Assembly: GCA_945903565.1 (NCBI GenBank)
Contig: CAMDPA010000004.1
Location: forward strand, 1-32,981
Source of the DNA: Devosia equisanguinis
Lineage (GTDB): Bacteria > Pseudomonadota > Alphaproteobacteria > Rhizobiales > Hyphomicrobiaceae
Reading direction: 5' to 3'
DNA length: 32,981 bases
The translations under genes and the position numbers were made by a program. Positions 7,929 through 24,689 of this stretch are shown piece by piece. Position 1 is the first letter of the stretch. Each line of letters starts with the position of its first letter. The notes under the pieces are model-generated. The model saw only the letters and a program-made list of their open reading frames with translations, was not told the DNA's origin and did no database searches.

Positions 7929-7972
7929 CCCAGGCCGAGCCTTTCGTATTTCATTGAAGGCTTTGGCTCTGT

Positions 7973-8003
7973 GTCACTGGCCCTCATCTAAGCGTCCAGT
8001 GAC
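7973..8003. promoter_or_regulatory. Inverted repeat in divergent promoter region (candidate operator)
   Basis: GTCACTGG (7973-7980) and CCAGTGAC (7996-8003) are perfect 8-bp inverted arms 15 bp apart. They lie in the 85-bp gap between the divergent poly-ferredoxin gene and the DUF4444 gene. TTATAA at 8005-8010, directly after the right arm, resembles a -10 element for the rightward transcript. If so, transcription would begin near or after 8014 and the DUF4444 start would lie further in. The repeat could bind a regulator controlling both directions; which one is unknown. Confidence 0.4.
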
Positions 8004-8013
8004 CTTATAACAA

Positions 8014-8820
8014 ATGCCAATATGCCAAACCCCTGCCGACTATCGTAGGGTGCGATCCTCAACGTCGCTCCCAGCTAAGGCCGCTCCATTGTCCGCGCTA
8101 TCAGAAACCAGCCTTGATCTCCCACCGGGTTTCCGGGCCGTGGGGCTGCGCGAATTGGGCGACGCCTTTACCAAGGCGGTCGAGATCGCGGCCGAACAGG
8201 GCGCCGGCACGCTCGTCTGGACGCGCCGGTTCGACCTCGTCGAGATTGCCGTCGTGCTCGAGCCGGCGGAACCGCTCGCGACCGCGCGCCGCGCCTTCTT
8301 CGCCGGCATGAACGCTGCCGCCGATGCGCTTGCCGCCCATTGCCCGCCCGAGAAGCCGATCGTGTTCGCCTGGCCCGACACAATCCTTCTCGACGGCGGT
8401 CTGATCGGCGGTGCGCGGCTCGCCTGGCCCGAAAACGCTGCCGAGGACAAGCCGCCGGAGTGGCTGGTGTTCGGCCTGATGCTACGGCTCATGACGCCGA
8501 CGGCGCCGGCCTCGCGTGATCGCACGAGCCTAGAGGCCGAAGGCTTCGATATGCTGGAGCCGCGCGAGTTGATCGCCAGTTTCGCGCGCCATCTGATGGT
8601 GCATTTCGAGACCTGGCGCGAGCGCGGCTTCCAGCCCGTGGGCGCGGACTATCTCGCACGCCTGTCGCCCGAGAAGGGCGCGCGGCGCGGTATCGACCCC
8701 AACGGTGATCTGCTCGTGCATCGCACGGGCAAAGCAGGCAAGGCCGAGCGGCAAGCGCTGATTCCGGATCTCTTGGCGTGCGGCTGGCTCGATCCCCAGA
8801 CCCGGGAGCCGTGGATCTGA
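8014..8820 (+). CDS. Biotin/lipoate protein ligase-like protein (DUF4444), probably non-catalytic
   Basis: The 268-aa protein has the biotin/lipoate A/B ligase fold followed by a C-terminal DUF4444-like domain (about residues 200-268). The central segment FAWPDTILLDGGLIGGARLA (about 121-140) aligns with the WPNDL...KLAG block of BirA-type ligases. The catalytic lysine position holds Leu, and the GRGRRG nucleotide loop is absent from the TRRFDLVEIAVVL region, so it probably does not ligate biotin or lipoate. Homologues sit with DUF6505 and DUF6352 in formate dehydrogenase clusters. ATG 8014 is the longest start. GTG 8050 or TTG 8089 (with AAGG about 10 bp upstream) are plausible, because the first 25 residues do not look like the family. 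DUF6505 starts two bases after its stop, indicating translational linkage. Its role is likely accessory to formate dehydrogenase assembly, by context only. Confidence 0.8.
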   Translation: MPICQTPADYRRVRSSTSLPAKAAPLSALSETSLDLPPGFRAVGLRELGDAFTKAVEIAAEQGAGTLVWTRRFDLVEIAVVLEPAEPLATARRAFFAGMNAAADALAAHCPPEKPIVFAWPDTILLDGGLIGGARLAWPENAAEDKPPEWLVFGLMLRLMTPTAPASRDRTSLEAEGFDMLEPRELIASFARHLMVHFETWRERGFQPVGADYLARLSPEKGARRGIDPNGDLLVHRTGKAGKAERQALIPDLLACGWLDPQTREPWI

Positions 8821-8821
8821 T

Positions 8822-9421
8822 ATGACGGCTCCCATGAAACTCCTGCGCACGATCCGCCTCGACAAGTCCGACACGTTCGTGTTCGCCCGCGCCGCCGAGC
8901 CCGGCGAATGGGCGACACCTGGCGGCTTCATGTTCTGGGACGGCGACCCCGCAACGCTCGACGGCAAGACCCGCGCGGCATTCCGCTCTGGCTTCCTCGG
9001 GCTCGGCTCGTTCGGCTGGTCGACGCTGGCCGAAGTGGCGGAGATCACACCCGATGCCCTCGCAACCATCACGGAATCGCTCGCGCGAATGTTGATGGAG
9101 CAGCACGGCGCACCCTCTCTCGAAGCAGCGCGCGCAGCAGCAGCCGAGGAAATCGCATTCGCGGCCTCGCTTGCGGAACATCCCCCGGGCACTGTGATCG
9201 CCCTGCAGCGCGCGGTTGACGACGATGGCACGGTGCGAGAGCGCTTCCGCACGATCAAGACCGTCTTGGAGCCTGGCGGTAACACGTTCGCGCAGGGCTG
9301 CGTGCAGCCGATCGGTGTTTCGCGCGACGATGCCGATGCCCTGCAGATCGAGGAAGTCGATTTCGTCGGCATGATGGGCGGCAAGGCCGATGCGGATGCG
9401 ACACCCAAGGAGCGGCCATGA
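8822..9421 (+). CDS. DUF6505 family protein
   Basis: This 199-aa soluble protein matches the DUF6505 family. The N terminus has the characteristic LRTIRLDKSDTFVFARAAEPGEW, a pattern resembling the start of small redox-enzyme accessory proteins, followed by AFRSGFLGLGSFGWSTLAEV. No cysteine motif, membrane segment or signal is visible; the only cysteine lies near the C terminus in FAQGCVQPIG. The function is unknown. It starts one base after the DUF4444 stop codon and its TGA overlaps the ATG of DUF6352 (ATGA at 9418-9421), so the three are translationally coupled and likely work together. Context suggests a role in formate dehydrogenase biogenesis. A second methionine (8834) is an alternative start that better matches homologues beginning MKL. 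Confidence 0.85.
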   Translation: MTAPMKLLRTIRLDKSDTFVFARAAEPGEWATPGGFMFWDGDPATLDGKTRAAFRSGFLGLGSFGWSTLAEVAEITPDALATITESLARMLMEQHGAPSLEAARAAAAEEIAFAASLAEHPPGTVIALQRAVDDDGTVRERFRTIKTVLEPGGNTFAQGCVQPIGVSRDDADALQIEEVDFVGMMGGKADADATPKERP

Positions 9422-10425
9422 TCGACTTCTGGGTATCGTCAGGCCATCTGCTGCTGGACAAGAACGAGCACGGCCACCTCGCCGTGACCGATGAGTTCCT
9501 GAAGCTCTACCTCGCGCGGCCCGAGCTGGTGCCGCCGCCGGAAGCGTGCGCGGCCGAGAACGCCCTTTATGCCCGCCTGATGGCGCAACCGCGCGCCGTC
9601 GTCGAGCCGAAGGACATCGCAGCAATCGCCGACGCCGACGCGCGCGAGAACTGGCAGATGATGCTCGGCTTTCGCGACCATCTCGTGCGCCACATAACGA
9701 TCGAGGCGGCCTATCTCGCGCTGATGCGATCGGGCGTTGGGCAAACGCCGCCGCTGTTCGTCGGTCAACTCGCGCATGTCATCCTGCGTAACGTGCTCGA
9801 CGGCGAAACCGATCCGATCGTGCTGCGCGCCGGCGAATTGATGTTCCGCTCGCAGCGTTTGACGCGCGAACAGGGCGGTATTCTCCTGGCCGACGAAGAA
9901 TTGGTCGACGGCGCGGAGAAAGATAAGCATGCCTCCCCGCTGGTCGCGATGCTCGGCGAGCATAAGGCCAAGCAGCTCGACGTGATGACCGCCGCCAACG
10001 CCGAACTCTACTGGAAGCGCAGCGAGGCCTTCGACATGGTGCTCGATTTCACGCCCTCGGCAACCGGGCGTCCGGCACTGGCGCGCGTGATGGAGCGCTG
10101 GCTCGCGCACATGCTCGGCATGACGGCGCGGATCACACCTGTCGAGCGGGTCAAGGACGAGGACTGGTTCTGGTTCATCGGCCTCGATGCCGAGGCGACC
10201 AAGATCGGCAACGCGTTGTGGCAGGGCAAGGACCCCGGCGCCGGCGCAATGGAGCGGATCGTGGCGCTGTTCACGCTCGAACTGCCGGAAGTGCGCGAGA
10301 TCGCGGGGCGCCAGATCCACATGATCCTGGCGATGGCCCCCGGCCAGATCGTGCGCATGAAGCCGCAGAACCTGCTTGTCGGACTGCCGGGCGCAGCGCT
10401 GGGAGGCCAGCATGGTCGAGCATGA
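9418..10425 (+). CDS. DUF6352 family protein
   Basis: This 335-aa protein is recognised as DUF6352, a family known to me only from formate dehydrogenase-linked clusters. It begins MIDFWVSSGHLLLDKNEHG, followed by DEFLKLYLARPELVPPPEAC. Later recognisable blocks include ENWQMMLGFRDHLV, a region of alternating helices, and DEDWFWFIGLDAEATKIGNALW near residues 243-264. It lacks a signal peptide, transmembrane segments and cysteine clusters and looks largely helical and cytosolic. Its ATG overlaps the DUF6505 stop, and its last 14 bases overlap the start of the DUF3305 gene. The function is unknown; a chaperone or scaffold role for the apo-enzyme is inference from position. Confidence 0.85.
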   Translation: MIDFWVSSGHLLLDKNEHGHLAVTDEFLKLYLARPELVPPPEACAAENALYARLMAQPRAVVEPKDIAAIADADARENWQMMLGFRDHLVRHITIEAAYLALMRSGVGQTPPLFVGQLAHVILRNVLDGETDPIVLRAGELMFRSQRLTREQGGILLADEELVDGAEKDKHASPLVAMLGEHKAKQLDVMTAANAELYWKRSEAFDMVLDFTPSATGRPALARVMERWLAHMLGMTARITPVERVKDEDWFWFIGLDAEATKIGNALWQGKDPGAGAMERIVALFTLELPEVREIAGRQIHMILAMAPGQIVRMKPQNLLVGLPGAALGGQHGRA

Positions 10426-10915
10426 AATCGTCGTCGGGCTCGTGCTGGAATGCCTCGCGCCGTCGAACCCGTGGGGCGAACACATCTGGCTTCCCGTCCA
10501 GATCTTGGAGGGCATTCCCGATACGCAACCCTGGGCGGTGTTGAGCCGCGGCCCCGATCGCGTGCGCTACTATGCCGGGGCGTTTGCCGTGACACTAGAT
10601 ACGCTTGATACGGCCTTTTATCGCGACAATCTCACGTCAAAACGTCCCTGCCTTTGGGTCGGCATGCGGCCTGACGGGAAAGAACCGCCGGTCGATATCC
10701 TCGCTGTCACCGCCGACCCGACCGAGGGCGAAGGGCTGACTCAGACCGGCACCAACGTCGTCGAGGTCATCGACATGCCCCTGAGTATTGCGGGCGAGAT
10801 CGCTGCGTTTATCGAGGCGCATCACGTCGAGCGTCCCTTCGAGAAACGCAAGCGTGACAAGCGCCCGCCGGATATGATGGGGCGCCGCCGGCCCATCGAC
10901 GAGTCGCAATCGTGA
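10412..10915 (+). CDS. DUF3305 family protein
   Basis: The 167-aa product has the DUF3305 pattern. An N-terminal VVGLVLECLAPSNPWGEHIW is followed by PVQILEGI, a beta-rich middle with RVRYYAGAFAVTLDTLDTA and FYRDNLTSKRPCLWVGM, and a C-terminal IEAHHVERPFEKRKRDKR, the hallmark tail of the family. The start at 10412 is preceded by GGGAGG (10401-10406) inside the DUF6352 gene, and the two coding regions overlap by 14 bases. DUF3305 and DUF3306 proteins are regularly found next to each other at formate dehydrogenase loci; their biochemistry is unknown to me. It is soluble, without cysteine motifs. Confidence 0.88.
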   Translation: MVEHEIVVGLVLECLAPSNPWGEHIWLPVQILEGIPDTQPWAVLSRGPDRVRYYAGAFAVTLDTLDTAFYRDNLTSKRPCLWVGMRPDGKEPPVDILAVTADPTEGEGLTQTGTNVVEVIDMPLSIAGEIAAFIEAHHVERPFEKRKRDKRPPDMMGRRRPIDESQS

Positions 10916-10925
10916 GCAAGTTCCG

Positions 10926-11681
10926 ATGAACGATCCAAAGGACAAGGGCGAGCCGTTCCTATCGCGCTGGGCGCGTAGGAAACAGGATGCTGCGCGCGGG
11001 CGAATAGACGACGCTGTGCGGGAAAGCATTCCCGCTGGCGACCAGCCGGAGGCCGCCGATGCGGCACCCGCCCGCGAAGCGGAAAAGGAACCAGAACTCG
11101 ATCTTTCCAAGCTGCCGAAGGCTGAGGAACTGACCGCAGAAAGCGACATCACCGCCTTCCTCGACAAGCGCGTACCGGCCATGCTCCGCAACGCCGCGCT
11201 CGGCCGGATGTGGACACTCGATCCCACGATCCGCGATTTCATCGAGGTCGCGGAGAATCAGTGGAACTGGAACATTCCAGGCGGCGCCCCCTTCTACGAG
11301 CCGATCGAGTCCGTCGTCGAAAGCGTCGGCGAGATCGTCGCCCAGGTGGGGAACCAGGCGGTTAGCTTGTCAGGCAATAAGACGGCGCAAGCCTTCGAGT
11401 CACCGAGCGTTACCCCCGGTGCCGAAACGGCGTGTGCGCGCGTTGAGCCGGCAGATACTAAACTAAAGGATAAGTCACGAAGTTTTGAAGTAGCAGCAGC
11501 CCCAACTGCGCCGCAAAACGATCCGCATAAATCCGATGATGGCACCACTTTTGCGGTGGCAATAGACGATGCCTATGTATCAGGCACTTCGAGCGAAGTT
11601 TCGGGTGATGCTGCGCCGCAGCATCTCGATGCCCAAGTCTTCGGCAATCGTCGCCGGCACGGCGGCGCGCTGCCCAGTTGA
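10926..11681 (+). CDS. DUF3306 family protein with extended C terminus
   Basis: The 251-aa protein starts with FLSRWARRKQDAARG, the signature N terminus of DUF3306. An acidic linker follows, then the core LPKAEELTAESDITAFLDKR and VPAMLRNAALGRMWTLDPTI, and a short DFIEVAENQWNWN segment. Family members usually end soon after this core. Here about 110 extra low-complexity residues follow (Ser/Thr/Ala-rich from about residue 140), probably disordered. It starts ten bases after the DUF3305 stop. The function is unknown; a basic N terminus plus acidic linker suggests a binding adaptor, which is inference only. Confidence 0.85.
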   Translation: MNDPKDKGEPFLSRWARRKQDAARGRIDDAVRESIPAGDQPEAADAAPAREAEKEPELDLSKLPKAEELTAESDITAFLDKRVPAMLRNAALGRMWTLDPTIRDFIEVAENQWNWNIPGGAPFYEPIESVVESVGEIVAQVGNQAVSLSGNKTAQAFESPSVTPGAETACARVEPADTKLKDKSRSFEVAAAPTAPQNDPHKSDDGTTFAVAIDDAYVSGTSSEVSGDAAPQHLDAQVFGNRRRHGGALPS

Positions 11682-11790
11682 CCCGGCTTCTGCTACATCT
11701 ACGTACAACCTGCATCTGGACAACGTTCCATAGGCTTGCTCTATGCCGAATGGGGGAGGGGCGTGCCGTCACAAGCGTGCGCGCCGGGAC

Positions 11791-12594
11791 ATGGCAATGC
11801 GAGACGAAGGACTACAAACTGCGATTGACGCCGCTGGTGGCGTCGGCGCCTTGGCGCGAAGCCTAGGCATCAGGCAGCCGTCCGTTTCGTCGTGGCTGAA
11901 GATCCCCGCCGATCGCGTGCTTGCCATCGAAGCAAAGACAGGGGTGCGTCGCGAACGCCTGCGCCCAGACCTTTATCCTGATACCGATGGGGAAGCTGAC
12001 ATTCGGTCCCCCGCCCTTGCGATCGACGATGTCGAGCGCGCGCGCGCCAACGAGTATCACTTGCTCGCCCGGTTGCTGCGCACTGCCCCGACGGCCGCAT
12101 TCCTCGCCGAAGTCGCGCAACTCAGCGGCAACGACAGTCCGCTCGGCATGGCGCACATCGAACTGGCGGAAGCTGCAAGCCGGGCCACTGCTACCGAAGT
12201 CGCTGCCGAGTATTTTGCTCTGTTCATAGGTGTCGGGCGCGGCGAGTTGCTGCCTTACGCCTCCTTCTATCTCACTGGCTTCCTACATGAGCGCCCATTG
12301 GCGCGGGTGCGTGAGGATTTGGCAAAGCTCGGCATCGAACGTGCGGAAGGCAACTTCGATCCCGAAGACCACCTTGGCCTTCTTCTCGAAGTTCTAGGCG
12401 CGATGGCGAATGGAACCTTCGACGCCGATCTGGGTACGCAGAAGGCCTTCTTCGATCGCCACGTCGCACCATGGGCGGAGCGGTGCTTCGCCGATCTCGC
12501 GACGTCGCCGTCAGCGAAATTCTACAAATCGGTGGCCGCGCTCGGCGCCTGTTTCATCGGCATCGAGCGCGAGGCCTACGCGTTCGATTCATGA
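11791..12594 (+). CDS. Cro/YdaS-type DNA-binding domain fused to TorD-family molybdoenzyme chaperone
   Basis: The protein (267 aa from this start) has two parts. Residues 1-65 form a Cro/YdaS-like helix-turn-helix: GLQTAIDAAGGVGALARSLG, IRQPSVSSWLKIPADRVLAI, then the ERLRPDLYP segment that usually ends such domains. After a linker, residues about 80-267 match TorD/DmsD all-helical chaperones: YHLLARLLRTAPTAAFLAEV, ELAEAASRATATEVAAEYFA, then LFIGVGRGELLPYASFYLTG, the best family signature, and EDHLGLLLEVLGAMA. TorD-type proteins bind Tat leaders of molybdoenzymes and aid cofactor insertion. The fusion suggests a chaperone that also senses apo-enzyme and adjusts transcription (inference). ATG 11743 is a possible longer start, but the added 16 residues look non-domain; ATG 11797 is also possible. 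It sits directly upstream of the Tat-signal peptide and fdhA. Confidence 0.85.
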   Translation: MAMRDEGLQTAIDAAGGVGALARSLGIRQPSVSSWLKIPADRVLAIEAKTGVRRERLRPDLYPDTDGEADIRSPALAIDDVERARANEYHLLARLLRTAPTAAFLAEVAQLSGNDSPLGMAHIELAEAASRATATEVAAEYFALFIGVGRGELLPYASFYLTGFLHERPLARVREDLAKLGIERAEGNFDPEDHLGLLLEVLGAMANGTFDADLGTQKAFFDRHVAPWAERCFADLATSPSAKFYKSVAALGACFIGIEREAYAFDS

Positions 12595-12669: not shown

Positions 12670-12870
12670 ATGAAAGCCAAGACCGAAGACAAGGGCGTCG
12701 ATCGCCGCGGTTTTCTGAGATCAATCGGCGGCGCAAGCGTTGCCGGAGCTGCTGTTGCGGTTGGCGCCGCCCCCCCGGCCGAAGCCGCCGAATCCGAAGC
12801 CGACAAGAAGAAGACGCGCTATCGCGAGACGGAGCACGTCAAGGCGTTCTACCGCACCAATCGCTATTGA
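12670..12870 (+). CDS. Formate dehydrogenase region Tat-signal protein
   Basis: The 66-aa protein is almost entirely a Tat leader plus a short tail. It has DRRGFLRSIGGASVAGAAVA with RR at residues 12-13, an AEAAESEADK region and a C-terminal RYRETEHVKAFYRTNRY. It matches the small family described as formate dehydrogenase region TAT target (TIGR02811). A strong ribosome binding site (AGGAGG at 12659-12664) precedes the ATG. The gene lies 49 bp before fdhA, which has its own Tat leader. The mature peptide would be about 30 residues. Its conserved tail and constant position suggest a small exported subunit or assembly factor of the enzyme; the function is not established. Its 3' flank carries the fdhA ribosome binding site. 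Confidence 0.88.
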   Translation: MKAKTEDKGVDRRGFLRSIGGASVAGAAVAVGAAPPAEAAESEADKKKTRYRETEHVKAFYRTNRY

Positions 12871-12918: not shown

Positions 12919-15915
12919 GTGCTCATCCGCCGTAAAGAAGCCAGCGCCCGCGCTTCCACGCTGAGAAGCGCCCTCGTCAGCACCTCGAACGAAAAGCTCG
13001 ACCGCCGCTCGTTCCTTGCCCGCTCGGGCCTTGCCGCCGGCGGCGTTGCCGCGATCGGTGGTCTCGGCGTGGCCGGCGTCAGGAAGGCCGAGGCCGGTCC
13101 AGTCAAGCCCGGTGTCAAGATCGAGCGTAAGAAGAACATCTGTACGCACTGCTCGGTCGGCTGCACGGTCATCGCCGAAGTTCAGGACGGGGTGTGGGTC
13201 GGCCAGGAGCCCGCCTGGGAATCGCCGATCAACCGTGGGACGCACTGCGCCAAGGGCGCCGCTATCCGCGAGATCGTGCACGGCGACCGCCGCCTGAAGT
13301 ACCCGATGAAGCTCGAGAACGGGCAGTGGAAGCGTATCACCTGGGAAGTGGCGCTTACCGAAGTCTCCAAGAAGATGATGGATATCCGCGAGAAGTCGGG
13401 TCCGGATTCGGTGTGGTGGCTGGGTTCCGCCAAGTTCTCGAACGAAGGCGCCTACCTGTTCCGCAAGTTCGCGGCGTTCTGGGGCACCAACTCCGTCGAC
13501 CACCAGGCCCGCATCTGCCACTCGACCACCGTGGCCGGTGTCGCCAACACGTGGGGCTACGGGGCGCAGACGAACTCGTACAACGACATTCGCAACGCCA
13601 AGACCGCCATCATCATGGGCGGCAACCCGGCCGAGGCCCATCCGGTCTCGCTGCAGCACGTGTTGACCGGCAAGGAATTGAACCGCGCCAACCTGATCGT
13701 CATCGATCCGCGCATGACGCGCACGGCGGCGCACGCCACGGAGTACGTGCGCATCCGCTCCGGCACCGACATTCCCGTGATTTACGGGATGCTCTACCAC
13801 ATCTTCGAGAACGGCTGGGAAGACAAGAAGTTCATCGAGCAGCGCGTCTACGGCATGGAGGAAACGCGTGCCGAGGCCAAGAAGTGGGACCCCAAGACCG
13901 TCGAGGACGTGACGGGCGTTCCCGGCGAGCAGCTGAAGCGCGTCGCCGAGATGTTCGCGAAGGAGAAGCCGTCGACGCTGATCTGGTGCATGGGCGCAAC
14001 CCAGCACACCGTCGGCACCGCCAACGTGCGCGCCTACTGCACGCTGTTGCTGGCGACAGGCAACGTCGGCGGCCCCGGCATGGGTGCCAACATCTTCCGT
14101 GGCCACACCAACGTGCAGGGCGCCACCGATCTCGGCGTCGATATCGGCACGCTGCCGCTCTACTACGGCCTGGCCGACCCGGCGTGGCGCCATTGGGCCC
14201 GTGTCTGGGAGGTCGAGTACGATTGGCTCGACAGCCGCTTCGACAAGCTGCCCGGCCCGAACAACACGACCGTCAACTATCGTAACATGCCCGGCATCCC
14301 ATCGACCCGCTGGTTCGATGCGGTCACCATGCCGAAGGATCAGGTTACGCAGCGCGACAACGTCAAGGCCGCGATCATCTTCGGCCACGGCGGCAACACT
14401 GTTCCACGGATACCCGAAGCGGTGAAGGGCATCGCCGCCCTCGAGTTGATGGTGATCGCCGATCCCCATCCCACCAACTTCGTGTCGCTCGGCAACCGCA
14501 AGGACAACACCTACCTGTTGCCGATCTCGACCCAGCTCGAATGCGCCGGCAGCCGCACGGCGTCGAACCGCTCGCTGCAGTGGGGCGAGAAGATTGTCGA
14601 GCCGATCTTCGAAAGCGCCAACGACTACTGGGTGATGTACGAGCTCGCCAAGAAGCTCGGTTTCGCCGACCGGATGTTCAAGAACATCAAGATGATCAAG
14701 GGCAAGTTCGGCGATGAGCCGGAGGCCGAGTCGATCTTGCGCGAGATCAATCGTGGTGGCTGGTCGACAGGCTACTGTGGCCAATCGCCGGAGCGGCTCA
14801 AGGCGCACATGGCCAACCAGGATAAGTTTGACATCACGACGCTCAAGTCGTTGCCGGGCGCGCCTCCCGAAGTCGCGGGCGATTACTACGGCCTGCCTTG
14901 GCCATGCTGGGGCACGCCGGAGCTGAAGCATCCCGGTACGCCGCTGCTCTACAACACAAACCTCGCAGTGAAGGATGGTGGCGGCACGTTCCGTCCCCGC
15001 TTCGGCGTCGAGCGCGTGACCAAGACGAAGGTCATGGAGGACGGCAAAGAGGTCGAGAAGGAAATCCGCACGAGCATGCTCGCCAAGGACTCCTACTCCA
15101 AGGACAGCGAGCTGACCGACGGCTATCCCGAGTTCACACTTGCGATGCTCAAGCGTCTGGGTTGGGACAAGGACCTGACCCCCGCCGAGCTCGAGGTGAT
15201 CACCCGCATCGGCGGCAACACGCCCGATACGGTGTCGTGGGCCATCGACCTGTCGGGGGGTATTCAGCGCGTCGCGATCGCGCACGGCTGCACACCCTAC
15301 GGCAACGGCAAGGCGCGTACCGTCGCGTGGGATCTGCCTGATCCCGTGCCCGTGCACCGCGAGCCGATCTACACGCCGCGTTCTGATCTCGTCGCCACGT
15401 ACCCGACGCGTCCGGACTTCCGGCACTTCCGCATGCCCAACATCGGCTTCTCCGTGCAGAAGGCAGCGGTCGACAAGGGTGCGGCGAAGGAATACCCGAT
15501 CATCCTGACGTCGGGTCGCCTCGTCGAGTACGAAGGCGGCGGCGAAGAAACCCGCTCCAACAAGTGGCTGGCCGAGCTGCAGCAGGACATGTTCGTCGAG
15601 ATCAATCCTGGCGATGCAACCGCGCGCGGCATCAAGGACGGCCAGTGGGTTCAAGTTCAGGGCCCGGAAATGGCCAAGGACAAGTGGGTTCGTGTCAAGG
15701 CCATGGTAACCGAGCGCGTCGGCAAGGGCGTCGCCTGGATGCCGTTCCACTTCGGCGGCTACTATCAGGGCGAGGACCAGCGGAAGAACTATCCGCAAGG
15801 CACCGACCCGATCGTGCTGGGCGAATCCGTGAACACCGTGACCACCTACGGCTTCGACCCGGTAACGGGCATGCACGAAGGTAAAGCCACGTTGTGCCAG
15901 ATCAGAGCCGCGTGA
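12919..15915 (+). CDS. fdhA: Formate dehydrogenase, molybdopterin catalytic subunit (Tat-exported)
   Basis: This 998-aa protein oxidises formate to CO2 in the periplasm. The leader contains LDRRSFLARSGLAAGGVAAI. Next comes the [4Fe-4S] motif with Cys75, Cys78, Cys82 and Cys110, the last in GTHCAKGAA. Blocks of the bis-MGD fold follow: WWLGSAKFSNEGAYLFRKF, then HQARICHSTTVAGVANTWGY, where Cys200 replaces the selenocysteine of E. coli enzymes as metal ligand and His201 is the conserved neighbour, then MGGNPAEAHPV, VIDPRMTRTA, and a C-terminal domain with ILTSGRLVEYEGGGEETRS. The start is GTG 12919, placed six bases after AAGGAGG (12906-12912). Length fits membrane-associated FDH-N-type alpha subunits of alphaproteobacteria. 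It is followed by fdhB after two palindromic repeats. The metal could be Mo or W; sequence alone does not decide. Confidence 0.96.
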   Translation: MLIRRKEASARASTLRSALVSTSNEKLDRRSFLARSGLAAGGVAAIGGLGVAGVRKAEAGPVKPGVKIERKKNICTHCSVGCTVIAEVQDGVWVGQEPAWESPINRGTHCAKGAAIREIVHGDRRLKYPMKLENGQWKRITWEVALTEVSKKMMDIREKSGPDSVWWLGSAKFSNEGAYLFRKFAAFWGTNSVDHQARICHSTTVAGVANTWGYGAQTNSYNDIRNAKTAIIMGGNPAEAHPVSLQHVLTGKELNRANLIVIDPRMTRTAAHATEYVRIRSGTDIPVIYGMLYHIFENGWEDKKFIEQRVYGMEETRAEAKKWDPKTVEDVTGVPGEQLKRVAEMFAKEKPSTLIWCMGATQHTVGTANVRAYCTLLLATGNVGGPGMGANIFRGHTNVQGATDLGVDIGTLPLYYGLADPAWRHWARVWEVEYDWLDSRFDKLPGPNNTTVNYRNMPGIPSTRWFDAVTMPKDQVTQRDNVKAAIIFGHGGNTVPRIPEAVKGIAALELMVIADPHPTNFVSLGNRKDNTYLLPISTQLECAGSRTASNRSLQWGEKIVEPIFESANDYWVMYELAKKLGFADRMFKNIKMIKGKFGDEPEAESILREINRGGWSTGYCGQSPERLKAHMANQDKFDITTLKSLPGAPPEVAGDYYGLPWPCWGTPELKHPGTPLLYNTNLAVKDGGGTFRPRFGVERVTKTKVMEDGKEVEKEIRTSMLAKDSYSKDSELTDGYPEFTLAMLKRLGWDKDLTPAELEVITRIGGNTPDTVSWAIDLSGGIQRVAIAHGCTPYGNGKARTVAWDLPDPVPVHREPIYTPRSDLVATYPTRPDFRHFRMPNIGFSVQKAAVDKGAAKEYPIILTSGRLVEYEGGGEETRSNKWLAELQQDMFVEINPGDATARGIKDGQWVQVQGPEMAKDKWVRVKAMVTERVGKGVAWMPFHFGGYYQGEDQRKNYPQGTDPIVLGESVNTVTTYGFDPVTGMHEGKATLCQIRAA

Positions 15916-15917
15916 GG

Positions 15918-15946
15918 CGGTGTCAGCCCCTCCGGGTCTGACACCG
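15918..15946. repeat. GTGTCAGACCC-type palindrome, fdhA-fdhB gap (copy 1)
   Basis: Arms CGGTGTCAGCCC (15918-15929) and GGTCTGACACCG (15935-15946) pair with one mismatch. It starts two bases after the fdhA stop. The sequence belongs to the same family as 15968-15994 and 16616-16644, and less exactly 881-909. It would form a stable hairpin in the mRNA. Confidence 0.8.
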
Positions 15947-15967
15947 TGCTCCGCTCTGTCCGTTCCA

Positions 15968-15994
15968 GGTGTCAGACCCAGAGGGTCTGACACC
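15968..15994. repeat. GTGTCAGACCC-type palindrome, fdhA-fdhB gap (copy 2)
   Basis: GGTGTCAGACCC (15968-15979) and GGGTCTGACACC (15983-15994) are perfect 12-bp arms around a 3-base loop. It lies just before the fdhB ribosome binding site (GAGGAG, 15998-16003), so the hairpin could affect fdhB translation or mRNA stability. Confidence 0.85.
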
Positions 15995-16010
15995 GTCGAG
16001 GAGAACCAAA

Positions 16011-16607
16011 ATGGCTCGTATGAAATTCCTATGCGACGCGGATCGCTGCATCGAGTGCAACGCCTGCGTCACCGCCTGCAAGAACGAGAACGATGTACCC
16101 TGGGGCATCAACCGGCGGCGTGTCGTCACGATCAACGACGGCAAGCCCGGCGAACGCTCGATCTCGATGGCCTGCATGCACTGCACCGATGCGCCCTGCG
16201 CCGCGGTTTGCCCAGTCGACTGCTTCTACACGACGGCCGACGGCGTCGTGCTGCATTCGAAGTCGCTGTGCATCGGCTGCGGCTACTGCTTCTACGCGTG
16301 CCCGTTCGGCGCCCCGCAGTATCCCAAGCAGGCCAATTTCGGCTCGCGCGGCAAGATGGACAAGTGCACCTACTGCGCCGGCGGCCCCGAGGCCGACATG
16401 ACTCTGGTGGAGTATGCCTCCTACGGCCGCAACCGTCTGGCCGAAGGCAAGCTGCCGCTCTGCGCCGAGATGTGCTCGACCAAGGCGCTGCTCGCCGGCG
16501 ACGGCAACATCATCGCCGAGATCTACAAGGAACGCGTGACCAAACGCGGCTACGGCTCCGGCGCCTGGGGCTGGAAAACGGCCTACAAGGAATCGATCGG
16601 CATCTGA
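16011..16607 (+). CDS. fdhB: Formate dehydrogenase iron-sulfur (beta) subunit
   Basis: The 198-aa protein passes electrons from FdhA to the cytochrome b subunit through four [4Fe-4S] clusters. The motifs are CIECNACVTACKNEN (near residues 11-25), CMHCTDAPCAAVCPVD, CIGCGYCFYACPFGAPQYP, and CTYCAGG paired with CAEMC near residues 160-164. It has no signal peptide and would be exported bound to FdhA. It lacks the C-terminal membrane anchor of E. coli FdnH, so it probably docks on FdhC. ATG 16011 was chosen because GAGGAG ends seven bases upstream; an in-frame ATG at 15969 falls inside a palindrome and would add 14 non-homologous residues. It lies between fdhA and fdhC on the same strand. Confidence 0.95.
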   Translation: MARMKFLCDADRCIECNACVTACKNENDVPWGINRRRVVTINDGKPGERSISMACMHCTDAPCAAVCPVDCFYTTADGVVLHSKSLCIGCGYCFYACPFGAPQYPKQANFGSRGKMDKCTYCAGGPEADMTLVEYASYGRNRLAEGKLPLCAEMCSTKALLAGDGNIIAEIYKERVTKRGYGSGAWGWKTAYKESIGI

Positions 16608-16615
16608 TCGTGAAG

Positions 16616-16644
16616 TGGTGTCAGACCCTCTGGGTCTGACACCA
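16616..16644. repeat. GTGTCAGACCC-type palindrome, fdhB-fdhC gap (copy 3)
   Basis: TGGTGTCAGACCC (16616-16628) and GGGTCTGACACCA (16632-16644) are perfect 13-bp arms with loop TCT. It begins nine bases after the fdhB stop and is the third member of the family within 730 bp. Confidence 0.85.
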
Positions 16645-16761
16645 TGACGCCCGACTGCCGCCGTCTATGGCCGCCGGATGTCGCACAGGCCGCATAAGGT
16701 GGAAGCCACGCGTCGGGGGACGTCGTTTGGTTTCAGGGGACGAAGTGGAGGAACGCACGTG

Positions 16762-17793
16762 ATGACGTTTGCGAGCTGGCGCCGCCTTGTTGGGGTTTTC
16801 GCCGTCCTGATCGGACTTCTCATCGCATTGCCTGCGTTCGCGCAGCAGCCGACCAGGGTCAACCCCACCGCGGATTCGGTGAACGAGCAGAAATTGCTCG
16901 AAGCACTGAAACCGGGCGGGCCGCAGGCGGTCACCGGGCGCGCTTCCATTCCCGATTCGCGTGCTCCGTCTCTCATTCAGCCCGGCGGTCGCGATTGGCG
17001 CGTGTGGCGCGAAACCACCCTGCCCCGGATTGGCGCCGGTACGATCATGGGCATGACCGTCCTGCTCCTGGCATTCTTCGCCATGAAGGGCCGGATCAAG
17101 GTCGAAGCCGGGATGTCGGGCAAGCAGGTGGAGCGCTTCGGCAGCTACGAGCGCTTCAACCATTGGTTGACAGCCACCGCGTTCATCGTGCTCGGCTTGA
17201 CCGGCCTCAACGTCACCTATGGCCGCCAGTTCCTGCTCCCCGTAATGGGGCCGGATGGCTTCACCGCATTCTCGCAGTGGGCCAAGTACCTGCACAACTA
17301 CATGAGCTTCGCGTTCGTGATCGGTCTCGTCGCGATGTTCGTGCAATGGGTCGTCTACAACCTGCCGATGCCCAGCGATATCCGCTGGATCGCGCAAGGC
17401 GGCGGCATCTTCGGCAAGAAGCATCCTCCCGCCGGCAAGTTCAATGCCGGGCAGAAGTTGATCTTCTGGGTCACCATACTTGGCGGCTTCGCGCTTGCGG
17501 CAACCGGCTACGCCATGATGTTCCCATTCTACAGCGCGCCGGGTAGCCTCGCTGGCTATTCCGGCACGATGGAAGGCCTGCAGACGATGTCTGTGCTGCA
17601 CGGCGTGATCGCGCTGGTGATGATCGCCGTGATCATGGCGCACATCTACATCGGCACGATTGGCATGAAGGGCGCGTTCTGGTCGATGGGCAACGGCAAG
17701 GTCGACACCAACTGGGCCAAGCAGCATCACTCGATCTGGGCCGCCAGGGTGTTGCCGAAGGATCCGCCGGGCAAGCCGACGCCGGCGGAATAA
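16762..17793 (+). CDS. fdhC: Formate dehydrogenase cytochrome b (gamma) subunit
   Basis: The 343-aa membrane protein anchors the enzyme and hands electrons to quinone through b hemes. It starts with a cleavable-looking signal, a hydrophobic run ending ALPAFAQQ near residue 28. A periplasmic stretch of about 60 residues follows, then transmembrane segments including GTIMGMTVLLLAFFAM, TAFIVLGLTGLNV, YMSFAFVIGLVAMFVQWVVY, IFWVTILGGFALAATGYAMM and LHGVIALVMIAVIMAHIYIG. Candidate heme ligands are the histidines in ERFNHWLTA, YLHNYMS, VLHGV and MAHIYIG. These fit the FDH gamma family (TIGR01583-like). ATG 16762 (or GTG 16759) follows GGAGGA at 16747-16752; the upstream open frame is not conserved-looking. 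The gene lies third in the fdhABC operon, and a small membrane peptide follows after 41 bp. Confidence 0.93.
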   Translation: MTFASWRRLVGVFAVLIGLLIALPAFAQQPTRVNPTADSVNEQKLLEALKPGGPQAVTGRASIPDSRAPSLIQPGGRDWRVWRETTLPRIGAGTIMGMTVLLLAFFAMKGRIKVEAGMSGKQVERFGSYERFNHWLTATAFIVLGLTGLNVTYGRQFLLPVMGPDGFTAFSQWAKYLHNYMSFAFVIGLVAMFVQWVVYNLPMPSDIRWIAQGGGIFGKKHPPAGKFNAGQKLIFWVTILGGFALAATGYAMMFPFYSAPGSLAGYSGTMEGLQTMSVLHGVIALVMIAVIMAHIYIGTIGMKGAFWSMGNGKVDTNWAKQHHSIWAARVLPKDPPGKPTPAE

Positions 17794-21834: not shown

Positions 21835-24105
21835 ATGACGAACGCAACCGATCACGCCTCCGGCACGGATCTATCGCGCCGCGCTTTTCTCGTTTCCGCC
21901 AGCGCGGCCGCGGGAGGTCTCGTTCTAGGGTTCGGAGCAACCGCCCAGGCACAGACGACCGCCGCCGCCAGCGCCGCTCCCGCCTATGCGCCGTTCACCG
22001 CGTCGCTGCCGGAGATCACGTCTTGGGTTGTGATCCAGCCCGACGATACCGTGATCATCCGCGTCGCCCGTTCCGAGATGGGGCAGGGCGCTCTAACCGC
22101 GCTGCCGATGCTGGTGGCGGAGGAATTGGAGTGCGAGTGGGCCAAGGTGCGGGCCGAGTTCGCGCCGCCATCGGAGAACCTGAAGCGCAAGGCCGAGTGG
22201 CGCGGCAAGGCGGCCCAAGGCGCGCCGCCCAACCATGAGCTCATGAACCACTGGGGCGCGATGTCGACCGGCGGTAGTCGCGGCACCCGCGACAGCCAGC
22301 TTTATCTGCGCGAAGCCGGCGCCATGGCCCGCATCATGTTGATCGAGGCGGCCGCGAAGGAGTGGAATGTGTCGGCTGCCGAATGCACGGCGGCCAACAG
22401 CGTCATCACGCACGTACCATCCGGCCGCAAGACGACATTCGGAAAAGTCGCGGTGGAGGCGGCCCGTGTTCCTCCGCCCACGCGCGTAACGCTGAAGGAT
22501 CCCAAGACCTGGAAGCTGTGCGGCAAGGCGGTTCGCCAGATCAACGCGCCCGGCAAGGTCAACGGCTCCTTGCAATATGGCATCGACGTGCGTCTGCCGG
22601 ACATGCTGCACGCAACGTTGGCGCAGTGCCCCGTGTTCGGTGGCAAGATCAAGAGCGTCGATGAAAGCAAGGTCAAGTCGATGCCGGGCGTACGCCAGGT
22701 CGTGCGGCTGAGTGACGAGGCCGTATGCGTCATCGCCGACAGTTTCTGGCAAGCGAAGAAAGCTCTGGATGCCCTGCCGATTGTTTGGGACGAAGGCCCC
22801 AACGCGAAAGTGACCAGCGAGTCGATCGCTGAGTTCCAGCGAGCCGGCTTCGCCGCGACCAACGCCGGTGTCACCAACGAAGCCGGCGATGCGTTGGGCG
22901 CGATCGAAGGCGCCCCGCGCAAGGTCGAGGCGGAATACAACACGCCGTTCCTCGATCACGCCAATATGGAACCGATGAACGCGACCGCCAAGGTCGCGGA
23001 CGGCAAGGTCGAAGTGTGGGTGTCCTCGCAAAACGGCGAGGCAGCGTTGGCAGCCGCCGCCGAGGCGGGCGGTGTCCGGCCCGAGCAGGTCTACGTCCAC
23101 AAGATGCACTTGGGCGGTGGGCTCGGCCGGCGCGGGTCCTATAACGACCCGATCCACTATGCCGTGCTGGCGGCCAAGCGCACCAACGGCCGGCCGGTTA
23201 AGCTCGTCTACTCCCGCGAGGAGGATATGAGCCACGGCTTCTATCGTCCGGCGTCACGCATCGTTTTGCGCGGCGGGCTCGACGACAAGGGCAACGTGAC
23301 CGGCCTGCACGTGCGCATCGCCGGGCAGTCGATCAACGCCTGGCACTTCCCCGATCGCAACAAGGCCAACCTTGATCCAGCGCAGGCCAACGGTTTCCAC
23401 AAGGCGGACTTCGGCTACACGTTCCCGAATCTGCGTGTCGAAGTCGTCATGCGCAACACGCATGTTCCCGTTGGCGTGTGGCGCTCCGTGAACTCGAGCC
23501 AGAACTCGTTCTACAAGGAGAGCTTCATCGACGAGCTCGCACATGCCGCCGGCAAGGATCCGTTCGAGTTCCGTCGCGCGCTGCTTGCCAATGCACCCAA
23601 GCACAAGCGCGTTCTCGAGATCGTGGCGGATAAGGCCAATTGGTTGAAACCGCTGGCGGCGGGCATGTTCCGCGGCATTGCCGTCGAGAATGCATACGGC
23701 AGCTATCAGGCGGTGGTGGCGGAGGTCACGGTCAGCGAGCGCGGCGCCCTCAAAGTGCATCGCATCGTCAACGCGATCGATTGCGGCCACGCCGTCAATA
23801 CGAACATCATCGAGCAGCAAATGCAGGGCTCGGTCGTGATGGCGATGACGGCGATGTTGTACGGCGAGAACAAGGTCGATCGCGGCCGGGTCGTCGACGC
23901 CAACTTCGATACCTACCAGTTGATGCGGATTGATGAGATGCCGATCGTGGAGAACCACATCGTGCCCTCGTTCGATTTCTGGGGCGGCATCGGCGAGGCC
24001 GGCGTGCCGCCGATCGCACCCGCGATCTGCAACGCGATCTTCGCCGCCACCGGCCGTCGCATCCGCTCGCTGCCGCTGAAGCATCACAAGCTGACGAAGG
24101 TATGA
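21835..24105 (+). CDS. Molybdenum hydroxylase large subunit, Tat-exported (isoquinoline 1-oxidoreductase beta type)
   Basis: The 756-aa protein binds the Mo-pterin cytosine dinucleotide cofactor and hydroxylates or oxidises its substrate in the periplasm. The leader contains [20 protein letters not shown] (about residues 13-32). Recognisable blocks are [19 protein letters not shown] (about 82-100), a repeated-half structure beginning [20 protein letters not shown], then [38 protein letters not shown], and [20 protein letters not shown]. Glu721 in that last block corresponds to the catalytic base of the xanthine dehydrogenase family. It fits the IorB/aldehyde dehydrogenase subgroup, which also uses Tat. 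Its stop codon overlaps the ATG of the SoxX-like cytochrome (ATGA), so electron acceptor and enzyme are coupled. Aldehydes or N-heteroaromatics are the likely substrates. Confidence 0.93.
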
Positions 24106-24689
24106 TGGGCAGCCTGGGTAATCGGCTTCTCACGTGGCCGGCCCGTTTTGGCTCGCCACCTCTCACCCTGCGTCCCCGGCCGAAGCGGCGTGAGCCGCGC
24201 AGAGCCGGGGTCTTTCCCGCTTCAGGAAGGGCGAGCCCTCTACTCTTCACGGTCTTGGCCTGCGTTGCACTCGCGCCGTCAATTGCGCTTGCTCAACCAG
24301 CCGTAGAGGCGCTCGCGAAGTTCGCCATCACCGGCGACACGATTGCGCAACCACTCGGCGGCGCCAAGGGCGACGCGGCGCGCGGGAAAACGCTGGCGTT
24401 CGATCCCGAGCGCGGCAACTGCACGATCTGTCATCCCGTGCCCGGCGGCGATGCCCGCGCCCAGGGCGACGTCGGGCCGACTCTAGCCGGCGTCGGCGCG
24501 CGGCTCACCGAAGGCCAACTCCGCTTGCGGGTGGTGGACGGCACACGCATCAATCCCGACACGATCATGCCGCCCTATCATCGCGTCGAAGGCCTCAACC
24601 GCGTCGGCCCGCGATGGCAGGGAAAACCGGTTCTGTCGGCACAGGAAGTCGAGGATATCGTCGCGTTCCTCGGCACGTTGCGGCAGTAG
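24102..24689 (+). CDS. SoxX-family monoheme cytochrome c with repeat-derived N-terminal extension
   Basis: The 195-aa protein has one heme site, CTICH (residues 107-111), in a SoxX-like frame: ITGDTIAQPLGGAKGDAARG, GDVGPTLAGVGARLTEGQLR, VVDGTRINPDTIMPPYHRVE (Met as the likely sixth ligand) and VLSAQEVEDIVAFLGTL. SoxX normally pairs with SoxA in thiosulfate oxidation, but no sox genes are present. Here the ATG overlaps the stop of the molybdenum hydroxylase large subunit, so it probably takes electrons from that enzyme. The N terminus is odd: residues 17-46 are Arg/Pro-rich and encoded by a REP-like palindrome (24150-24237), and the signal-peptide core LLFTVLACVALAPSIALAQP begins only at about residue 47. 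No convincing later start exists, so the gene may be read with an unusually long signal n-region. Confidence 0.88.
   Translation: MMGSLGNRLLTWPARFGSPPLTLRPRPKRREPRRAGVFPASGRASPLLFTVLACVALAPSIALAQPAVEALAKFAITGDTIAQPLGGAKGDAARGKTLAFDPERGNCTICHPVPGGDARAQGDVGPTLAGVGARLTEGQLRLRVVDGTRINPDTIMPPYHRVEGLNRVGPRWQGKPVLSAQEVEDIVAFLGTLRQ
24150..24237. repeat. REP-like nested palindrome inside the soxX-like gene
   Basis: Three nested pairs of arms are present: GGCTCGCC/GGCGAGCC (24150-24157, 24230-24237), CCCCGGC/GCCGGGG (24174-24180, 24204-24210) and GCGGC/GCCGC (24185-24189, 24194-24198). The style resembles intergenic palindromic repeats of Hyphomicrobiales genomes. Here it lies within coding sequence, adding about 30 residues to the protein. 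Confidence 0.65.

Follow-up and report, generated by a model that had tools for sequence, protein, structure and literature searches.

A helix-turn-helix domain fused to a TorD-type chaperone ahead of formate dehydrogenase genes in Devosia equisanguinis: a probable autoregulator that may respond to enzyme maturation

Chaperones of the TorD family encoded within formate dehydrogenase operons have been described as TorD-fdh and DmsD-fdh, whose operons also hold DUF3305, DUF3306, fdh tat and fdhGHI according to the sections on these operons in Bay et al. (2015; PMC4464133), and FdhM of Campylobacter is named as a formate dehydrogenase chaperone in the corresponding passage of PMC10609526. As portrayed there, they belong to the same chaperone family and the same kind of operon as the protein considered here, a TorD-type chaperone fused to a helix-turn-helix (HTH) domain. 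The main text of PMC4464133 uses none of the terms helix-turn-helix, DNA-binding and fusion, and the review PMC10609526, in its passages on these chaperones, speaks of neither helix-turn-helix nor DNA-binding nor a repressor. The searched open-licence literature, which covers few subscription journals, yielded no account of an HTH-TorD fusion.

The DNA-binding half has its counterpart in the YdaS/P22 Cro-type HTH (PF15943, PF14549): by profile it is the same domain, and what reads as a Cro-type recognition helix and a palindrome before the own gene add to the likeness. YdaS and P22 Cro proteins are stand-alone and phage-type, whereas the HTH described here is part of a chaperone protein and belongs to a single metabolic operon. 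In its design, the fusion also recalls BirA, a protein with a repressor HTH N-terminal to an enzyme that fills an apo-protein and with an operator located by the genes of its own pathway. Here, too, a maturation factor carries an N-terminal DNA-binding domain, a candidate operator lies by the pathway genes, and the demand for filling could relieve repression. Unlike BirA, the protein is a chaperone and not a ligase, and no small-molecule co-repressor is known; the likeness is one of design, not of homology. SicA-InvF and FliT exemplify secretion chaperones whose free or occupied state is read out by transcription; they act on a separate transcription factor, unlike the single-protein fusion. 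In Escherichia coli, apo-TorC controls TorS (Gon et al., 2001, summarized in passages of PMC10845959). In that account, an unfilled subunit feeds back on the transcription of its own operon, as proposed here, but it does so via a two-component sensor, whereas the fusion would be a chaperone equipped with its own DNA-binding domain. New in the present analysis is a palindrome, ATAG-N7-CTAT, which lies upstream of the fusion gene in most loci of the main class (S) and in none of the 54 unfused relatives compared.

The window, i.e. the whole stretch of 32,981 nucleotides that was analyzed, harbors a formate dehydrogenase operon in the order accessory block, DUF3306, fusion, TAT-target protein, FdhA, FdhB, FdhC (Table 1). 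Bradyrhizobium sp. 184 shows the same order; there, the fusion bears no annotation beyond 'molecular chaperone TorD family protein', and fdh3B is the name given to the beta subunit. An FdhA match was present in all 51 fused loci of the first count and adjoins the chaperone gene, lying 3' of the fusion where positions were read. The short protein matched by TIGR02811 comprises 66 amino acids with little beyond a Tat leader; it, too, was matched in all 51 of these loci, lies between the chaperone and FdhA in the loci with mapped positions, and could be a partner, a decoy or a signal for the chaperone half. Several further features of the window were recorded. A palindromic repeat occurs in four copies (874-911, 15911-15948, 15960-15997 and 16609-16646), three of them around fdhB, with the core GGTGTCAGACCC-N3-GGGTCTGACACC in the best copies. 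The contig ends (5-150 and 32836-32981) are inverted copies of 146 nt with 99% identity, either an assembly effect or a repeat present at both ends. Downstream, 24102-24689 encodes a SoxX-like sulfur-oxidation cytochrome (TIGR04485), and the adjoining open reading frames, judged by eye from their translations, read like a molybdenum hydroxylase.

Table 1. Coordinates of the fusion gene, its domains, the palindromes and the neighboring genes in the window.
Feature	Position	Strand	Remarks
Accessory genes: biotin/lipoate-ligase-like, DUF6505, DUF6352, DUF3305	8014..10915	+	Pfam; same order in Bradyrhizobium sp. 184
DUF3306 protein, gene preceding the fusion	10926..11681	+	Pfam
Operator-like palindrome ATAG-N7-CTAT, copy 1	11562..11576	.	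inside 3' end of DUF3306 ORF
Operator-like palindrome ATAG-N7-CTAT, copy 2	11730..11744	.	intergenic; extended form CATAG-N7-CTATG
HTH-TorD fusion protein	11791..12594	+	intact ORF, 267 aa; true start may be ATG 11797
YdaS/Cro-type helix-turn-helix, residues 8-63, recognition helix QPSVSSW	11812..11979	+	PF15943
Variable linker, residues about 64-80	11980..12030	+	identity across 48 S-class loci
TorD/NarJ-type chaperone domain	12031..12591	+	PF02613; TorD, DmsD models below cut-off
Short 'formate dehydrogenase region TAT target' protein	12670..12870	+	TIGR02811 above cut-off
FdhA, alpha subunit, twin-arginine leader	12919..15915	+	TIGR01591 best, below equivalog cut-off; true start may be further in
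FdhB, iron-sulfur subunit	15969..16607	+	4Fe-4S domains; true start may be further in
FdhC, cytochrome b subunit	16678..17793	+	TIGR01583 above cut-off

Both halves of the fusion are identified by profile. The N-terminal part matches the Pfam model YdaS_toxin (PF15943) over residues 8-63 with an E-value of 1.6e-15 (57.1 bits, cut-off 30) and falls just below the cut-off for P22_Cro (PF14549; E 3.9e-6, 27.0 bits, cut-off 30.2); among PDB sequences, it matches Cro (3bd1, E 6e-6). The name YdaS toxin is an inherited Pfam label and says nothing of a toxin function here. The second part matches Nitrate_red_del/TorD (PF02613) over residues 115-233 (E 1.4e-31, 109.8 bits, cut-off 22.2) and, in PDB, the TorA-specific chaperone 1n1c (E 8e-4). 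The NCBIfam equivalogs are not reached (TorD 54.8 vs. 132 bits, DmsD 36.8 vs. 162 bits); by these scores, the chaperone half is a member of the TorD/NarJ family, not TorD or DmsD proper. It is the sole PF02613 match found in the own genome, which is 94% complete. The AlphaFold model of the fusion is poor (pLDDT 51, alignment of three rows) and was left out of the reasoning. A putative ribosome site, GGGAC, ends six bases upstream of ATG 11797 (MRDEGL...), and MRD or MRE stands at this place in 24 of 48 S-class loci, with V in ten more by hand count; because of the ribosome-site spacing and the recurrence of MRD/MRE, the reading frame may start at 11797 rather than at 11791. Across the same 48 loci, mean pairwise identity amounts to 68% in the HTH, 57% in the TorD half and 25% in the linker. 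The stretches LPY, TGFL and PEDH in the TorD half are retained in at least 95% of 43 loci.

The full-length fusion was found in at least 38 of the 397 genomes of the order sample, at the same operon position, and in ten of the 385 genomes of the class sample, three of these from the order (own genome included). The phylum sample yielded ten full-length matches in 398 genomes, all from the window's own order. The arrangement DUF3306 - fusion - TAT peptide - FdhA is identical in 42 loci (L064-L105). In relatives that lack the HTH, the TorD half stands by itself, in several cases within the same operon; the examined stretches of 49 unfused loci contain no separate related HTH gene at E <0.05. This lack, together with the number of genomes that encode the full-length protein, excludes two genes joined by a sequencing artefact. 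The original prediction, which had read the N-terminus as a Cro/YdaS-like HTH, the remainder as a TorD-family chaperone and the position as next to formate dehydrogenase genes, thus agrees with the Pfam matches above cut-off, with the PDB matches and with a location just ahead of the fdh structural genes; its suggestion that the fusion may recur in relatives is likewise borne out by the order sample.

In a tree of the TorD domain, the fused proteins do not form one group. The loci with a recognition helix of the QPSVS type (class S) fall within one supported set of 61 rows that includes 13 unfused ones, a pattern as expected if the HTH had been gained once there and lost several times; the strict ATAG-N7-CTAT palindrome is kept in none of these 13. 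The loci with a different helix (class W) are placed outside this set. A tree in which all 51 fused rows form one clade can be rejected (p 5e-59), but not one that groups the S clade, its 13 unfused members and class W (p 0.147); the placement of class W suggests a second, separate fusion event. Single loci illustrate different states of the gene. The unfused locus L109 (G376) shows GATAG-N7-TTATC before its TorD gene, which agrees with the strict form in only one arm and would fit a recent loss of HTH and operator. L183 (G1193) harbors a decaying fusion in which only HTH residues 3-34 match and the palindrome is still present. A second HTH-like copy, broken by stops, lies at G011:C41:34156-34503, and G268 carries a fused (L081) and an unfused (L113) copy on one contig, each beside fdh genes.

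Within 320 bp upstream of the gene, ATAG-N7-CTAT occurs in 50 of 54 S-class fused loci, in 0 of 17 W loci and in 0 of 54 unfused loci, the latter having been chosen from the better matches and not at random. L160 (no TorD match) as well as L181 and L191 (same places as L124 and L128) were dropped before counting, and L183, with its broken HTH, was counted as class S. The palindrome had first been noticed by reading the upstream stretches of the first loci. The first count gave 44 of 51 fused and 0 of 49 unfused loci; the seven fused loci without the strict form comprise four with ATAA-N7-TTAT and three (L128-L130) with a different HTH. All 11 S loci fetched after the motif was seen contain the strict site (L124-L127, L144, L182, L183, L186-L188, L207), L144 being a weak held-out case as a near relative of L102. 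The first held-out test stood at five of eight, the three loci without an ATAG site being L128-L130, which only afterwards were assigned, on account of their helix, to a separate class W. Enumeration of all palindromes with 4-bp half-sites and gaps of 0-12 ranks ATAG with gap 7 at the top in S loci (50/54), whereas the best palindrome in unfused loci reaches 9/54. Only gap 7 is enriched in S loci; other gaps from 0 to 15 reach at most 1/54. Since the 50 strict sites contain 40 different spacers and no other gap is enriched, the conserved part is the arms and not the neighborhood. In the 581 kb of the 51 fused loci, 47 of 49 strict sites fall inside the 320-bp upstream stretches. The own genome (5.27 Mb) contains nine strict sites, two of them before the fusion gene. 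Since the reversed control pattern reaches the same count of nine, the strict sites are unusual by place and not by number. A wide regulon was considered and rejected: 28 genomes contain 52 copies of CATAG-N7-CTATG vs. 44 of the reversed control, 11 of the 52 lie at fdh, and there is no general excess elsewhere. A site 7 kb downstream in G513 was also discarded, as it is located not at a promoter but in the gap between convergent genes, following reading frames whose translations read MobA-like and MoeA-like.

The recognition helix appears to vary together with the palindrome. Alanine at the third position of the QPSVS helix is found in exactly the four S loci with ATAA-N7-TTAT (4/4), and serine, threonine or proline at this position goes along with ATAG in 49 of 49 readable loci, the remaining ATAG locus being L183 with its broken HTH. 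This covariation is striking but not statistically independent, as the change to alanine and ATAA represents only two events on the tree; a looser ATAA-type pattern is also present upstream in 2 of 49 unfused loci. Class W provides a further case. Its recognition helix reads QANVWHW, QGHVWHW or a similar sequence, and there is an insert of some four residues; Pfam still calls these proteins YdaS plus TorD. Upstream of the genes, ACAAA-N4-TTTGT occurs exactly in 13 of 17 W loci and with at most one mismatch in all 17, compared to exact matches in 0 of 108 S and unfused loci taken together and, with at most one mismatch, 4/54 in S and 1/54 in unfused loci. This motif had come to light on visual inspection of L128-L130; a prediction was then written for eight loci of family f144, and six loci of family f179 came later. 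It was found exactly in 6/8 and 4/6 of these, respectively (10/14 overall, 14/14 with at most one mismatch).

How much weight the association can bear depends on ancestry. The loci are related, so raw P-values overstate their independence, and the starred branches yield only four independent pairs of fused and unfused loci, too few for significance. On average, 3.8 of these 4 pairs link the fusion to a palindrome of any class and 2.8 to the strict ATAG site; none points in the opposite direction. The shared descent of many loci and the small number of contrasts are what could be said for another regulator that binds the palindromes, their link with the fusion being a by-product of common ancestry. 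This is very improbable, since the palindrome base follows the recognition-helix residue, a second HTH class has a second palindrome at the same place, and spacers diverged while the arms stayed. Scarcely credible is an HTH half that is vestigial or a mere dimerization module: the TorD half does stand alone at the same operon position in several lineages, but the HTH is the more conserved half (68% vs. 57%) and the strict palindrome is present in 0 of 54 loci without HTH. The DNA-binding role that had been proposed for the HTH half is strongly supported, as far as comparative data can tell, by palindromes that track both the presence of the HTH and its recognition helix, and the domain very probably binds DNA and autoregulates fdh. 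Of the two regions that had been named as targets, 11682-11790 contains copy 2 of the palindrome, and 7929-8013, a divergent promoter region, contains no site.

The sign of the regulation is less clear from the position of the sites. Sigma70-like promoter scores near the S palindromes average 7.1, compared to 5.2 for shuffled flanks (highest 5.7), and because they exceed the shuffles, a promoter near the palindromes is likely. The W loci score about as their shuffles (5.4 vs. 5.1), and the promoter predicted in the window itself scores weakly (4.9 vs. 4.0), with the palindrome at +26. Relative to the best predicted promoter, the palindrome center falls between -45 and +15 in 42 of 54 S loci; shuffled flanks give 36.5 loci on average and up to 43, so placement was rejected as proof of repression, and confidence in repression and in the explanation as a whole was lowered for this reason. 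The repression reading draws mainly on the relatives of the domain, as YdaS/Cro proteins are mostly repressors. This background is also what speaks against the protein as an activator of the fdh promoter, with or without sensing. Activation would suit the 9 of 54 S loci in which the palindrome center lies upstream of -45, where activators sit, and near-promoter placement not above chance leaves room for it; all in all, we regard it as unlikely.

Sites of the same kind lie before tungstate-uptake-like genes in a few lineages. In two genomes of family f77 (G503 and G634), ATAG-N7-CTAT occurs twice ahead of a gene for a TupB-like permease, at distances of about 137 and 81 bp. In G503, the genes that follow the permease encode an ABC ATPase and a TupA-like protein; the matches to the TupB and TupA models stay below the respective equivalog cut-offs. 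In f144, ACAAA-N4-TTTGT lies about 55-110 bp before tupB in four of five genomes tested. G205 and G170 show a site 1.5-1.7 kb before tupB, which in G205 stands in front of an ApbC/Mrp-like gene. The comparison covers 76 of 80 genomes, G378, G599 and G1185 (no tupB at E 1e-20) and G513 (tupB cut at the contig end) being left out. A matching site within 400 bp before tupB is present in 2 of 41 S, 4 of 11 W and 0 of 24 unfused genomes; any site in the examined tupB upstream stretch was found in 5/41 S genomes and in 0/6 of the W genomes of f179, and none lies before tupB in the own genome. The general prediction of a site before tupB in fused genomes thus failed, and the tupB-linked site is a feature of few lineages, not a rule. 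The loci with such sites in f77 and f144 are L230:4174-4190, L235, L236, L311-L313 and L285. In these two families, the sites would tie the regulator to metal supply, and they fit a switch that reacts to a lack of metal cofactor.

Taken as a whole, the explanation we favor, with modest confidence, is a chaperone that also acts as its own transcription regulator and is switched by its occupancy. Both halves of the protein are intact and conserved. The HTH, presumably as a dimer, would bind the palindrome a short distance ahead of the gene that encodes it, the first gene of the stretch torD - TAT peptide - fdhABC; given the coevolution of helix and site, we hold this step with high confidence. 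The bound protein would repress this internal promoter, which is likely on rather light support. The TorD half would then bind newly made FdhA, either its leader or the cofactor-free enzyme, and its occupancy would alter DNA binding: as long as it is free, the chaperone would repress, whereas engagement with unfilled FdhA would make it release the DNA, and supply would follow demand. Such sensing, which has the logic of BirA, is plausible, its probability being about evenly balanced; occupancy would be the simplest signal because the TorD half keeps its conserved stretches.

The palindromes, their position and the covariation with the helix demand nothing beyond plain autoregulation, in which the HTH represses its own gene, holds the amounts of chaperone and FdhABC constant and receives no signal from the TorD half; the long variable linker (25% identity) may even mean that the two halves do not communicate. 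Plain autoregulation gives no reason for the fusion of regulator and chaperone in two HTH classes and leaves the f77 and f144 sites before tungstate-uptake-like genes unexplained, and we consider it rather unlikely. The maturation-coupled switch is consistent with the anatomy of the protein and with these sites in few lineages. A tentative extension, somewhat doubtful as it stands, is a chaperone-repressor that gauges unfilled formate dehydrogenase and in some lineages also raises tungstate uptake, i.e. a switch responding to cofactor demand; it builds on two HTH classes with two candidate operators, each of which also occurs before TupB-like genes in some lineage (f77 and f144).

How bacteria match the synthesis of complex molybdenum and tungsten enzymes to the supply of cofactor and chaperone is poorly known. 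If true, the proposed switch would be a chaperone-based counterpart to BirA, and a single purified protein together with a DNA site and a peptide would suffice to address the question. The switch would also bear on the regulation of the formate dehydrogenase operon in Bradyrhizobium and in many genomes of the same class.
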